Source: Candidatus Aerophobota bacterium
GTDB lineage: Bacteria; Aerophobota; Aerophobia; Aerophobales; B3-G15
DNA length: 5,912 bases
NCBI GenBank assembly: GCA_014859225.1
Contig: JACUUP010000089.1
Span: forward strand, 1 to 5,912
Reading direction: 5' to 3'
Positions 1,590-5,866 of this stretch are shown here, piece after piece. Positions within the stretch are counted from its first letter, which is position 1; each line of letters opens with the position of its first letter. The notes under the pieces were generated by a model that worked only from the letters and a program-made list of their open reading frames with translations, was not told where the DNA came from and did no database searches. The translations under genes and the position numbers were made by a program.

Positions 1590-2684
1590 GTGAGCAAGCA
1601 GCTTTATAAAGTAATTCTTGATGTTTTGCCTCAGGCTATCCTCGTTTTAAATAAGGACCTGAGAGTGATAGTATGTAATCAAAGATGTGAGAGCTTTTTC
1701 TTAAAATCAATAGAGGACATCGTAGGCAAAAAGCTATCCGAGATTACTTACGACGAAGAGCTTGCCAGTAAAGCTAAAGTAGTGCTGCAAGATGCAAAAG
1801 TTGAAACCAAATTTGTTGAATTTCACCTGGATATAAAAAAAGAGAGCCCAAAAATCCTGAGAGCCACGATAACTCCTTTCCACAGGGAAGATTTTGGCAT
1901 TCCCTCCTGTCTTGTAATGTTAGAAGACATTACCGGACAGGTTGAACTTGAGGAAAAAGTGCTGCAATCAGAAAAGCTCGCCGGGATGGGACTTCTGGCA
2001 CGAAGGATAGTGCATGAGCTCGGGAATCCATTAAGCATCATGACCTCAACACTTCAGTATGTCCAGCCTATACTTGAGAATATCAACAATCAAGAAGTGA
2101 CAGAGACTATGGAAACCCTCAGAGAAAGTGCCCACCAGATGTATACCCTGCTGCAGAATCTTTCTGATTTTTCAAGCTCAAAGCGGCCTCAATTTGAAGT
2201 ATGCAAGTTTCATCAAATTTTGCTCCAACTTTTCACCCTTATCAGCAAAGAAGCCGAGATGCACAATATCAGTATCCAAAAAGAGTTTGACGACAGGATT
2301 ACCGGCTGCGATGTAGATAAACAACAGATAAGACAACTTTTTCTAAATCTCTTTAAAAATGCTATTGAGGCTATGCCCCGGGGAGGGAAACTGTACGTAA
2401 AGACATGCCTTGCTCCAAAAGATTCACCAGAAAATGAAGACAGAGTTCTTGTAGAGATTTCTGATAGCGGAGAAGGAATTAGCAAAGCGGAAATGCAGTA
2501 TATCTTCAAACCTTTTTATTCTACAAAGCCAAGAGGCACAGGATTGGGACTTTCCTTCTGTCGACGGGTTGCAGAAGAACATGAGGGAGAGCTCCTGGTG
2601 AAAAGTGAGTTAAGAAAAGGGACCACATTTATGGTGAGTTTACCTGTAAAACAGACTAACATAAGAGATTATGCAAAGAATTAG
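1590..2684 (+). CDS. Soluble PAS-domain sensor histidine kinase, NtrB-like
   Basis: Cytoplasmic histidine kinase of 364 residues with no membrane segment. Residues about 1-120 form a PAS domain (VLPQAILVLNKD start, ending LEDITGQ). A HisKA dimerisation domain follows, with H-box HELGNPL and phospho-acceptor His142. The HATPase_c domain is complete: N-box NLFKNAIEAM (N257), G1 box DSGEGI (D292), F-box FKPFYSTK and G2 box GTGLGL (316-321). The layout matches NtrB-type partners of sigma-54 activators, and its stop codon lies 2 bp before the next gene, which encodes such an activator, so they are very likely cognate. The start is GTG, chosen because AGGAG (1580-1584) lies 5 nt upstream and the PAS domain begins at once. 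The upstream gap contains CTATATGCTATAG (1556-1568), an inverted repeat with an extended -10-like TGCTATAGC, so a weak internal promoter is possible. The ligand is unknown. Confidence 0.95.
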   Translation: MSKQLYKVILDVLPQAILVLNKDLRVIVCNQRCESFFLKSIEDIVGKKLSEITYDEELASKAKVVLQDAKVETKFVEFHLDIKKESPKILRATITPFHREDFGIPSCLVMLEDITGQVELEEKVLQSEKLAGMGLLARRIVHELGNPLSIMTSTLQYVQPILENINNQEVTETMETLRESAHQMYTLLQNLSDFSSSKRPQFEVCKFHQILLQLFTLISKEAEMHNISIQKEFDDRITGCDVDKQQIRQLFLNLFKNAIEAMPRGGKLYVKTCLAPKDSPENEDRVLVEISDSGEGISKAEMQYIFKPFYSTKPRGTGLGLSFCRRVAEEHEGELLVKSELRKGTTFMVSLPVKQTNIRDYAKN

Positions 2685-2686
2685 GT

Positions 2687-4082
2687 ATGTATATGAGGAA
2701 CAATCGCCCGACTATTCTTGTGATTGATGATGAGCTTCTGGTACACAAAGTCATCTTGCGCCTGTTAAAGCCAGAGTTTTCTGTTGAGAAGGCTTTGTGC
2801 GGACAGGAAGGACTTAAAAAGATAGAGCTTATGACACCTGACCTCATCCTTTTAGACTTAAGGATGCCCAAAATGAGCGGCATGAGTGTTTTAAAGAAAG
2901 TGGTGGGAAAAAATGAAGATATCCCGGTTATCATTCTTACCGCTTATGGAAATGTAAGCTCAGCAGTTGAGGCAATAAAGCTTGGAGCAGCAGATTACAT
3001 TGAAAAGCCTTTTGATAATCAGAAACTTAAGAGGATGCTGGAAAAGCTTCTGGAAAGAAAGAAAAATATCCAGACAGTTGCAGATGAGATGGGTATTGTG
3101 GGAAAAAGCCCACAAGTTCAAAAAGCCTGGGAACTGGTTAAGAAATTTGGACCCACGGATATCCCCATTCTCCTCCAGGGGGAAACTGGTACGGGTAAAG
3201 AACTTTTTTCAAGAGCCGTTCACTTTCTCAGCAAGCGACACAGGGAAGCCTTTGTGCCCGTTGATTGCTCCTCTTTACCTGAATCTTTAATAGAAAGTGA
3301 GCTTTTTGGATACAAAAAAGGAGCTTTTACCGATGCAGATAAGGACAAAGCGGGGCGACTGGACTGCGCTCATGGGGGAACCTTATTTTTGGATGAGATT
3401 GGCAACCTTCCCACAAAAGACCAGATAAAACTTTTGAGAGTCCTTCAGGAAAAACAGTACATTCCCCTGGGAGCAAAAGAAGCTAAAAGTCTTGATGTGC
3501 GTGTGGTGAGTGCAAGTAATGCTAACCTTAAAGAAGCTATTGAGCGAGGCAATTTCAGAGAAGACCTTTACTACCGTATCAGTGGAGTAGTTATTGAACT
3601 TCCTTGCTTGAGGGAAAGGGAGGGTGATGTAGAGACTCTTACCCGATATTTTGTAGAAAAATATGGAAGAAAATACAATAAGCCCAACGTAGAGATTTCA
3701 GATGAGGCTACACATCTTTTATGCTCCTACGGCTGGCCGGGAAATGTTCGGGAGCTTGAATATGTAATAGCCCGGGCAGCTGTTCTTTCAGATAAGGTTA
3801 TTTTCCCCTCACACCTTCTTTTATATTCCCAAAAGAAAAGTTTTACTTCAGGTGAAAATTACGCGGAAGGAATTAATGTAGAGGTAAAATTTGACTCCAG
3901 CTTTAAAGGACCGATTGATTTAAAAAAGGTAAAAAAAAAGGTTAGTAGAAAAATTTGAGAGACTCACCATTGATGAGATGAAAAAAAGAACCTCTTTAAA
4001 TCAAATTCAACTTGCAGAGTTTCTCGGTATAGACCCCAAAACCTTACGCAGCAGGATAAAAAATGATTCTCATAGTAGATGA
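2687..4082 (+). CDS. NtrC-family sigma-54 response regulator, frameshifted near its C-terminus
   Basis: Phosphorylation-controlled activator of sigma-54 RNA polymerase. The receiver (residues about 8-125) has D14/D15, phospho-acceptor D57, T85 and K107. The AAA+ domain (about 137-380) has Walker A GETGTGKE (165-172), the sigma-54 contact loop as GAFTDA (212-217) rather than GAFTGA, Walker B GGTLFLDE, likely arginine fingers at FREDLYYR, and GNVREL. The first frame stops at 3956-3958 after 423 residues. The missing Fis-type helix-turn-helix is found one frame over up to a stop at 4080-4082 (LVEKFERL ... FLGIDPKTLRSRIK). The second frame is blocked by TAA at 3930-3932, so the shift must lie between 3933 and 3941, in the run of nine A. 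Eight A would restore one protein. It starts 2 bp after the kinase; ATG 2693 is an alternative with better-spaced AGGT. The full-length gene overlaps the next by 20 nt. Family certain; whether the indel is real is open. Confidence 0.93.
3931..3939 (+). other. Run of nine A at the frameshift site
   Basis: The homopolymer sits where the reading frame of the sigma-54 activator is lost. The upstream frame reads on for only five codons to TGA, while the helix-turn-helix frame is open only from 3933 onward. The frame change needed is +1 (equivalent to -2). One surplus A in the sequence, or RNA polymerase slippage giving eight or eleven A, would join the halves. Confidence 0.85.
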
Positions 4083-4428
4083 CCAAAAAAGTATGTGCTG
4101 GATTCTATCCAAAATTCTCTCAGAGGCTGGATTTTTGGTGGAAACCACACAAACAGCCGAAGAGGCTCTTTTAATAGCAGCTAACAATAAAATCCGGGCG
4201 GCAATCATAGACTACCGACTGCCGGATAAAAATGGATTTGACCTTTTTTTAGAGCTTAAAAAGTGCAATCCAAAAATCCTGGGTGTGCTCATCAGCTCCT
4301 ACGGTTCAAAAGAGCTCAGAGAAAAGGCCACCCAGCTCGGTTTTTACGCCTACTTTGACAAACCCTTCCAAAATCAGGCCATCGTTACTGCTCTGCAAGC
4401 GGGTCTTGAGAAAACCATGGGAAATTAA
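4063..4428 (+). CDS. Stand-alone CheY-like receiver domain protein
   Basis: Single-domain response regulator of 121 residues, cytoplasmic, with no output domain. All phosphorylation residues are present: acidic pair D6/D7 (VDDQ), phospho-acceptor D50 (IIDYRLPD), S78 at the Thr/Ser position, and K100 in DKPF. Such proteins act by protein contact or as phosphate shuttles or sinks; the kinase encoded upstream is the natural donor. The ATG lies inside the last codons of the full-length sigma-54 activator (20-nt overlap), and AGGA (4053-4056) is 6 nt upstream, so it is translationally coupled to that gene. It closes the signalling operon, followed by a strong hairpin. Its C-terminal 25-30 residues have a degraded relative at 5264-5371, showing that a second receiver gene once lay downstream. 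The partner or target is not identifiable from the sequence. Confidence 0.92.
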   Translation: MILIVDDQKSMCWILSKILSEAGFLVETTQTAEEALLIAANNKIRAAIIDYRLPDKNGFDLFLELKKCNPKILGVLISSYGSKELREKATQLGFYAYFDKPFQNQAIVTALQAGLEKTMGN

Positions 4429-4434
4429 CACCCA

Positions 4435-4460
4435 AAATTGGGGAATCAATTCCCCAATTT
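4435..4460 (+). terminator. Long perfect hairpin ending the signalling operon
   Basis: A 12-bp perfect inverted repeat (AAATTGGGGAAT / ATTCCCCAATTT) with a 2-nt centre begins 6 bp after the receiver stop codon. It has only three T after the stem, so intrinsic termination may be incomplete, though the stem is strong and symmetric. A diverged copy occurs at 5376-5405 at the same offset from the receiver remnant, so it was probably duplicated with the gene. Confidence 0.6.
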
Positions 4461-4463
4461 CCC

Positions 4464-4491
4464 TTGACAAGGTATAAATTTATGGGAGAAT
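4464..4491 (+). promoter_or_regulatory. Sigma-70-type promoter of the toxin-antitoxin pair
   Basis: A perfect TTGACA (4464-4469) is followed by a 16-bp spacer and GAGAAT (4486-4491). An extended -10 TG sits at 4483-4484, which compensates for the imperfect hexamer. The predicted start near 4498 leaves only about 10 nt before the ATG at 4509, with no Shine-Dalgarno. The -35 begins 3 bp after the upstream terminator hairpin, so the module has its own promoter. Confidence 0.6.
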
Positions 4492-4508: not shown

Positions 4509-4862
4509 ATGAAAAAACCAAAGGGATATAGATTAGATAGTAGAAAAATAGAAGATCCGATTATTTTGAAGTTTATTAAGGATAGCAAAAACCTGAGAGA
4601 GAGAATAGAGAGGATATATCTTTTTGGGTCACGGGCAAGAGGCAATGAAAAACCAGATTCAGACTATGATTTGCTCATAGTTGCCGACCATCCTGATGCA
4701 AAATTTAGAGAAAAAATATACGATATAGTTATTGATATTTTACTTGAGACAGGAAAGCTTATTTCTCTGAAGATTTTTACAGGAAAAGAATTCAGAAAGT
4801 TGTGTCAAGCCCATACACCGTTTATGAAAAATATTCAAAGAGAGGGTATTAGAATTGGATAA
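4509..4862 (+). CDS. mntA: MntA-type nucleotidyltransferase antitoxin
   Basis: Small minimal nucleotidyltransferase of 117 residues. The signature GSx10DxD is intact: G40-S41 in LFGSRARG and D52/D54 in DSDYDL. D76 (VIDIL) is a candidate third metal ligand. In characterised MntA/HepT pairs this enzyme transfers AMP to the HEPN toxin and silences it; that is family knowledge, not shown here. A short N-terminal extension of about 30 residues precedes the core. The ATG is the first possible start because TGA (4503-4505) is in frame just upstream. There is no Shine-Dalgarno, so translation may be near-leaderless. The 3' end overlaps the HEPN gene by 8 bp, the usual order and coupling of this system. 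It appears more AT-rich than the signalling genes, in line with acquisition. The symbol is by family; orthology is not established. Confidence 0.87.
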   Translation: MKKPKGYRLDSRKIEDPIILKFIKDSKNLRERIERIYLFGSRARGNEKPDSDYDLLIVADHPDAKFREKIYDIVIDILLETGKLISLKIFTGKEFRKLCQAHTPFMKNIQREGIRIG

Positions 4863-5283
4863 GAAGACTATCATCTTAATAAAAGGGTACATGGAGAAGG
4901 CACGAAACAAGTTAAGTGTTGCAGAAAAATTATTGGATGGCAAGGCTTATGATGATGCGGTCTCTCGTGCATATTATGCTGCTTTTCACGCTGCTCAAGC
5001 AATGCTTTTGATTGAGGGATTATCTGCAAATACACACCATGGGGTAGTAACTTTATTTGGACTCCATTTTGTTAAGACAGGAAAGATTGATAAAAAGTTT
5101 GGAAGATATTTAGCCAATCTAAAGGATGATAGAGAAAATGGAGACTATGAAATTTTTTCTACCATTGATGAAGAAGTAGCACAAAAAGCTGTAAAAGAGG
5201 CAGGGGAATTTGTAGCAGAAATAAACAAATTTATAACTCAATTAATACTTGCATCTCCCGCAGAAAAAAAACCTCAAGCTTGA
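4855..5283 (+). CDS. hepT: HEPN-domain toxin (HepT-like, COG1895-type)
   Basis: HEPN helical-bundle protein of 142 residues, presumed RNase-type toxin of the pair. The family pattern is clear: KARNKLSVAEKLL (16-27), DAVSRAYYAAFHAAQAML (34-51), THHGV (60-64), HFVKTGKI (71-78) and RENGDY (93-98). A canonical C-terminal Rx4-6H motif is not obvious; R93-E-N-G-D97-Y98 occupies that place, with Y98 a conceivable AMPylation target. An Rx6H (R38-H45) occurs in the second helix. The TTG start (4855) is preferred because GAGGG (4842-4846) sits 8 nt upstream, it couples to the antitoxin stop, and family members have a dozen residues before the KAxxxL helix. ATG 4891 is an alternative. The last ten or so residues (SPAEKKPQA) seem to be read from the receiver remnant, so the natural C-terminus may have been replaced at the insertion junction. 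Confidence 0.86.
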   Translation: MDKKTIILIKGYMEKARNKLSVAEKLLDGKAYDDAVSRAYYAAFHAAQAMLLIEGLSANTHHGVVTLFGLHFVKTGKIDKKFGRYLANLKDDRENGDYEIFSTIDEEVAQKAVKEAGEFVAEINKFITQLILASPAEKKPQA

Positions 5284-5371
5284 GTTCCATGCCTACTTTC
5301 GTGCATCCTTTTAGAACAAGGCCATCACTGCCATTCTTCAGGCAGATTTAAGAATTCTAAAGGGAGTCACT
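5264..5371 (+). pseudogene. 3' remnant of a second CheY-like receiver gene
   Basis: Read in frame from 5264, the translation includes LEFHAYF, then RASF, an in-frame TAG (5312-5314), NKAI and ILQADL. This aligns without gaps to residues 92-115 of the intact receiver (LGFYAYFDKPF-QNQAI-LQAGL), with about 13 of 24 residues identical. DNA identity is also visible, for example GCCTACTTT and GGCCATC at the same spacing. The catalytic DKPF Lys is lost (RASF), and everything upstream of about residue 87 is missing, replaced by the toxin-antitoxin genes. The fragment overlaps the last codons of the HEPN gene in another frame. It is followed at the equivalent offset by a diverged copy of the receiver gene's terminator hairpin. 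It is a dead duplicate, not an expressed gene. Confidence 0.82.
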
Positions 5372-5375
5372 ACCC

Positions 5376-5405
5376 GAAATTAGGGAAATTTTTCCCGAAC
5401 TTTTT
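5376..5405 (+). terminator. Hairpin plus T-run after the HEPN gene and receiver remnant
   Basis: The core stem GGGAAA/TTTCCC (5383-5388, 5391-5396) has a TT centre. It is extended by TT/AA and AA/TT pairs across single mismatches, and followed by TTTTT (5401-5405). It resembles a worn version of the palindrome at 4435-4460. It now probably terminates the toxin-antitoxin transcript before the gas vesicle promoter. Confidence 0.6.
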
Positions 5406-5472: not shown

Positions 5473-5487
5473 TGGCACATTTTTTGC
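5473..5487 (+). promoter_or_regulatory. Sigma-54 (RpoN) promoter of gvpA
   Basis: TGGCAC (5473-5478), five bases, then TTGC (5484-5487) matches the -24/-12 consensus at the invariant GG and GC with exact spacing. The predicted start is near 5499, about 150 nt before the gvpA ATG. Such promoters need an AAA+ activator; one is encoded at 2687-4082. Confidence 0.8.
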
Positions 5488-5509
5488 CCCATTAGATTGT
5501 TAGAGTATT

Positions 5510-5571: not shown

Positions 5572-5590
5572 GACAGGCGTCCCGCCTGTC
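5572..5590 (+). repeat. gvpA leader hairpin 2, REP-like palindrome
   Basis: A perfect 8-bp stem GACAGGCG/CGCCTGTC surrounds a TCC loop. It is markedly more GC-rich than the flanks and resembles short palindromes that are scattered in many genomes. No T-run follows, so it is unlikely to terminate transcription. In the mRNA it would form a very stable hairpin. Confidence 0.6.
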
Positions 5591-5648: not shown

Positions 5649-5866
5649 ATGGCTACAGTCCAAAAATCCATGGATACGTCTAGTTTAGCTGAGGTCATTG
5701 ACCGTATTCTTGATAAGGGAATTGTGGTTGATGCCTGGGCAAGAATCTCGCTGGTGGGGATTGAAATCCTGGCTATTGAGGCGCGTGTGGTGATAGCATC
5801 AGTAGATACTTTCTGAAATACGCTGAAGCTGTAGGACTGACAGCTGCAGCTGCGGAAGCTACTTAA
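5649..5866 (+). pseudogene. gvpA: Gas vesicle structural protein GvpA with a one-base deletion
   Basis: GvpA is the small hydrophobic protein that polymerises into the gas vesicle wall. Codons 1-55 encode the family core almost unchanged: [20 protein letters not shown], then [23 protein letters not shown] (5814-5816) then stops the frame. One base over, from 5813, the rest follows exactly: [17 protein letters not shown] and TAA (5864-5866). Adding one base within the T-run at 5811-5812 restores a 72-residue protein, the normal GvpA length. The ATG has a near-perfect Shine-Dalgarno (AAAGGAGGTGAG, 5632-5643) with 9 nt from GGAGG to ATG, fitting very high expression. It is driven by the sigma-54 promoter at 5473. 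No slippery heptamer is present, so programmed -1 shifting is unlikely. It is either a sequencing error or a broken copy; gvpA is often multi-copy. Family identity is certain. Confidence 0.92.

Follow-up and report, generated by a model that had tools for sequence, protein, structure and literature searches.

A probable GvrA/GvrB/GvrC-type, sigma-54-dependent control module at a gas-vesicle locus of Candidatus Aerophobota

Introduction

Is the gas-vesicle gene gvpA of a Candidatus Aerophobota bacterium transcribed from an RpoN-dependent promoter, and is that promoter operated by the kinase and activator encoded beside it? The question is raised by a 5,912-nt stretch of DNA (the window, meaning the whole of the sequence analyzed here), for which a first-pass annotation had proposed a dedicated two-component switch for buoyancy. 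RpoN control of gvpA was considered unusual in that annotation. This is wrong, as experiments in Serratia ATCC 39006 have established that gvpA1 is under sigma-54/GvrA control. In that strain, 5'RACE placed the start of gvpA1 transcription behind a consensus sigma-54 site, transcription of the gene depends on the NtrC-family protein GvrA, and in-frame mutations in gvrA, gvrB or gvrC lower it (PMC4982088). Moreover, an rpoN transposon mutant makes no gas vesicles and shows reduced gvpA1 transcription (PMC11778176). GvrA-type operons have been described across Proteobacteria, and GvrA and GvrC homologues have been noted in Thiodictyon (PMC5944118).

Our reading is that a gas-vesicle operon is controlled here by a sigma-54-dependent module of the GvrA/GvrB/GvrC type, a mechanism that we consider probable (roughly 0.85). 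The mechanistic part of the original proposal, a dedicated kinase/activator switch on an RpoN-dependent gvpA promoter, is supported by footprinting, by synteny, by the activator tree and by the fixed spacing of a dyad, while its novelty falls to the Serratia precedent. Because the Serratia switch is already proven, the finding adds a distant lineage to a known system and does not constitute a new one.

Results

The proposed promoter, TGGCACATTTTTTGC (5473–5487, forward strand), is an exact match to the -24/-12 consensus TGGCAC-N5-TTGC with ATTTT as its spacer. The GG at 5474–5475 and the GC at 5486–5487 give the GG-N10-GC geometry that had been ascribed to it. It is the only exact match on either strand of the window, as compared with 0.01 ± 0.10 expected from shuffles, and the 1.8 Mb genome contains four exact matches versus one for the reversed control pattern. 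The three other matches are all intragenic: antisense inside a pyruvate-formate-lyase-like gene on contig C90, antisense inside gvpF on C94, and at the 3' end of a transketolase-like gene on C268. A wider sigma-54 regulon built on them was therefore rejected. The gvpA start codon (5649) lies 161 nt downstream of the promoter, and transcription is predicted to begin at about 5498–5500, which would give a 5' leader of about 150 nt. A palindrome, GACAGGCGTCCCGCCTGTC, sits in this leader at 5572–5590. It is a dispersed repeat found at 40 places in the genome at ≤2 mismatches, and was rejected as a gvpA-specific regulatory hairpin.

Upstream of the promoter, and on the same strand, Pfam searches identified a sensor kinase with PAS, HisKA and HATPase domains (1590–2684; GvrB-like role), an NtrC-type sigma-54 activator (2687–3958 as assembled; GvrA-like) with receiver, AAA+ (GAFTDA) and lid regions (Sigma54_activat, E = 2.1e-64), and a single-domain response regulator in the GvrC-like position (4063–4428; Response_reg, E = 9.7e-20). 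The assignment of a kinase and an NtrC-type activator to 1590–4082 was thus borne out, the kinase being a PAS histidine kinase and the helix-turn-helix (HTH) of the activator lying in another frame as assembled. All three genes are linked to a gvp gene, as are those for the GvrA/GvrB/GvrC regulators. The order kinase-activator-receiver is common to the window, to G009 (a genome from another family of the same order) and to loci L066 and L052, and a receiver gene is found at the same place in G009, L012, L013, L052, L066, Methylocella and Methylosinus. A membrane GGDEF protein is encoded directly upstream of the kinase (628–1527); it was rejected as a component of the switch because the ORF before the kinase in G009 encodes a receiver rather than a GGDEF protein.

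Two copies of the dyad AATTnGGGAAnnnnTTCCCnAAYT occur in the window and none in shuffles, and no further copy was found elsewhere in the genome at ≤2 mismatches. One of them, UAS2 (AATTAGGGAAATTTTTCCCGAACT; 5378–5401), has its core centered 84 nt upstream of the promoter, and the other, UAS1 (AATTGGGGAATCAATTCCCCAATT; 4436–4459), is a near-perfect copy that follows the receiver gene. UAS2 is probably an enhancer for the adjoining activator, with AATTCGGGAATCAATTCCCTAATT as the candidate site for its HTH. No published description of the dyad was found in a partial literature search. The region between the two copies is occupied by a nucleotidyltransferase-HEPN pair (4509–5283, forward strand; 4509–4862 and 4855–5283 by Pfam), which thus lies between receiver and promoter and is absent at the corresponding place in G009. 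The pair is toxin-antitoxin-like, with degenerate duplicates of the receiver 3' end and dyad on either side: positions 5291–5402, directly upstream of the promoter, are a degenerate repeat of 4348–4460 (alignment score 61 versus 20 ± 3 for shuffles). In the likely history of this spacer, a duplication and an insertion separated the receiver gene from the gvp promoter, with one dyad remaining at its working distance. The pair itself is probably not part of the switch, and a TTGACA-type site at 4464 may serve as its promoter.

Among 17 genomes of the order, a full Gas_vesicle plus GvpL/F set was detected only in the genome of the window (G000), with a partial cluster in G011. In G009, genes for kinase, activator and receiver, followed by the dyad and the promoter (TTTGGCACATTTTTTGC), are found on one contig, and a 17-nt stretch including the promoter is identical to that of the window. 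Its activator (462 aa, in frame) is ~62–64% identical to the window activator, whereas the other activators of the order reach 45%. A 161-bp region is present in G009 in two divergent copies (L132 60–240 and 4290–4470), one before a receiver-only gene and the kinase, the other after the receiver. The dyad and promoter are letter-for-letter identical in the two copies and the stretch between them differs, such that the pair of cassettes can be read as a natural footprint of dyad and promoter. The copy in front of the regulators suggests positive autoregulation in G009. The downstream G009 promoter precedes an operon start other than gvpA: about 20 nt of a gene beginning with MGNISD are present before the contig breaks off, and this gene resembles the MGNMSD gene found first on the gvp contig C94 of G000. 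No overlap that would join C215 to C94 was found. Loss of the promoter in a relative that keeps the locus had been named as grounds for doubt; in G009 regulators and promoter are both kept, and neither gvpA nor gvpF/L was found in the 84%-complete assembly.

As assembled, two genes of the window are interrupted. A run of nine A residues (3918–3960 region) precedes the stop of the activator ORF at 3958, and the Fis-type HTH of this protein (3933–4082; HTH_8, E = 2e-4) runs on in the +1 frame to 4082. Similarly, gvpA (5649–5816, forward strand) encodes 55 aa that match Pfam Gas_vesicle (E = 1.5e-15) and score above the NCBIfam GvpA cut-off, and a frameshift at about 5813 places the conserved C-terminus in the -1 frame, where it is read to a stop at 5864–5866. 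Each indel is a single base within or next to a homopolymer, and the metagenome assembly is fragmented, so that both are most simply read as assembly errors. For the activator, we prefer assembly error or a recent indel over programmed frameshifting. The latter was rejected because the activator of Methylocella tundrae, split comparably in one assembly, is whole in a second, and that of G009 is in frame. Alternatively, the locus could be decaying, with the frameshifts and the inserted nucleotidyltransferase-HEPN pair being real, the promoter a relic, and the switch dead in this strain. The presence of two frameshifts within 1.9 kb and the degenerate duplicated flanks around the inserted pair are in line with decay. 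However, besides the nature of the indels and the M. tundrae parallel, the end of gvpA is close to the contig edge, the HTH downstream of the frameshift remains collinear with that of the G009 protein, which is in frame, and the gvp genes on C94 are intact. We therefore consider decay unlikely.

The dyad core lies at a conserved distance from the promoter: 84 nt for the window and each of the two G009 copies, 85 nt for the Desulfobacterales gvp locus L012. A looser core, GGAA-N4-TTCC, was found 117–182 nt before the gvpA sigma-54 promoters of Phycisphaerales L019, Syntrophaceae L045, G053 and a Thiodictyon plasmid, and it occurs within 700 bp upstream of gvpA at 4 of 18 loci with a linked activator versus 1 of 63 without one. 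On the Thiodictyon plasmid (L148 13666–14219), the gvpA with this dyad and a sigma-54 promoter stands alone, with no other gvp gene within 14 kb. A dyad universal to gvp sigma-54 promoters was rejected: it is absent near those of L013, L041 and L048, as well as L052, L066, L151 and L152, the last four being members of the clade of the window activator. Since UAS2 scores as a terminator-like hairpin followed by T's, the 24-bp dyad might be a transcription terminator of the receiver gene rather than an activator site. This is decidedly unlikely given that the 84/85-nt distance is kept in several genomes, that one of the two G009 copies lies ahead of the regulator operon, and that the core recurs in upstream dyads of other phyla, in one case beside the lone gvpA.

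An RpoN is encoded in the genome, the absence of which had been raised as a possible objection to the switch. Its DNA-binding domain (Sigma54_DBD, 92–94 bits) includes the RpoN box ARRTVAKYRE and was the only part recognized; none of Pfam's N-terminal RpoN domains was detected in this protein (L007), which is short (~370 aa) and divergent and whose contig stops at the 3' end of rpoN. Only two proteins of the genome have a strong sigma-54 activator domain (234 and 219 bits; the next scores 30 bits), one encoded on C192 and the other in the window. The existence of a second strong activator leaves room for gvpA being under sigma-54 with the C192 protein acting in trans, or with several activators sharing the promoter. 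We regard this as very unlikely, because within the genome the dyad is confined to the gvpA locus, and across phyla it is adjoining kinase-activator genes that accompany gvpA and its promoter.

For a wider comparison, 80 named gvpA loci were scored with a -24/-12 matrix that is our approximation of the published consensus. Strong sites before gvpA were found in Desulfobacterales, Brocadiales, Phycisphaerales, Ignavibacteriae, Bacteroidales, Syntrophaceae and Chlorobiaceae; there were none in the Bacillota of this sample and, apart from Nostoc L081, none in its cyanobacteria. With this approximated matrix, scores of at least 10 were obtained for 7 of 17 activator-linked loci versus 2 of 48 others, counting loci with enough flank (Fisher p = 7e-4). 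The order kinase-activator-receiver-gvpA recurs in L066 and L052, where the -24/-12 site is located further upstream, ahead of the receiver gene. In the activator tree, the window protein falls in a clade of nine gvp-linked activators (support 97/89) and does not group with the remaining activators of its order, while the gvp-linked activators of Bacteroidota and Bacillus lie elsewhere on long branches. Even though its scoring is a consensus match and a sigma-70-like TTGACA lies at 4464 ahead of the nucleotidyltransferase gene, the idea that the -24/-12 match arose by chance and that a different promoter drives gvpA is barely credible in view of the rarity of the promoter, the 17-nt identity in G009, the conserved dyad spacing and the association with linked activators.

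Discussion

The elements described above, their conservation and their linkage were observed directly, and they suggest the following route of control. In response to a presumed stimulus, the soluble PAS kinase would phosphorylate the NtrC-type activator, which would bind the dyad GGGAA-N4-TTCCC 84 nt upstream of the promoter. Its AAA+ domain would then melt the DNA for RNA polymerase-sigma-54 waiting at the -24/-12 site, so that the gvpA mRNA would begin at about 5499, and the receiver-only protein would probably tune phosphoryl flow. The rarity and position of the promoter, the presence of RpoN alongside only two strong activators, conservation in G009, the association of both GGAA-N4-TTCC and the -24/-12 site with linked activators, the gvp-linked clade, and the Serratia precedent all favor this model. 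Weighing against it are the out-of-frame HTH and the GvpA truncated as assembled, the nucleotidyltransferase-HEPN pair that splits regulators from promoter, the dyads missing near several clade members' promoters, and the G009 promoter at a contig end before an operon start other than gvpA.

Like Serratia sp. ATCC 39006, the window combines an NtrC-family activator and GvrB/GvrC-type regulators encoded with the gvp cluster, a sigma-54 promoter upstream of the first gvpA, and two transcription units, one for regulators and one for structural genes. Unlike in Serratia, the kinase, activator and receiver genes lie upstream of gvpA as a contiguous set uninterrupted by gvp genes, and are separated from it by a nucleotidyltransferase-HEPN pair. 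In addition, a sigma-54/dyad copy precedes the regulator genes in G009, whereas Serratia gvrA is reported to have a sigma-70-type promoter. On the plasmids of Methylocella tundrae and Methylosinus (gvrA-gvpF-gvrB-gvrC-gvpA), the activator belongs to the same clade as that of the window, and kinase and receiver likewise stand directly before gvpA, with a -24/-12 site ~75–80 nt in front of it. They differ in having gvpF between activator and kinase, and GGAA-N4-TTCC was not found near their promoter. At Bacteroidota/Ignavibacteriota loci (L041, L048, L053 and others), a kinase and a sigma-54 activator adjoin gvpA and the -24/-12 site lies ~80–160 nt before it, but the activators there group separately and at a distance, and no dyad common to them and the window was found.

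What is both new and useful here is the candidate enhancer dyad, together with the duplicated G009 cassette. A broader proposal, to which we give somewhat less than even odds, is that one ancestral dyad (GGAA-N4-TTCC), often at a fixed distance, is recognized by GvrA-clade activators across phyla, and that duplication of the cassette onto the regulator genes in the order of the window created a self-reinforcing buoyancy switch. The module itself indicates that the Serratia-style sigma-54/two-component flotation switch is an old, traveling part of gas-vesicle clusters, outside Proteobacteria too. A concrete candidate enhancer sequence makes direct binding by the activator testable, and a defined set of kinase, activator, dyad and promoter could act as an inducible control of gas-vesicle expression in laboratory strains. 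As a side observation from the same order, G011 (L139 1106–2227) encodes a large GvpJ-like protein of 373 aa with a long C-terminal extension, beside a gene for an ArsA-like ATPase.
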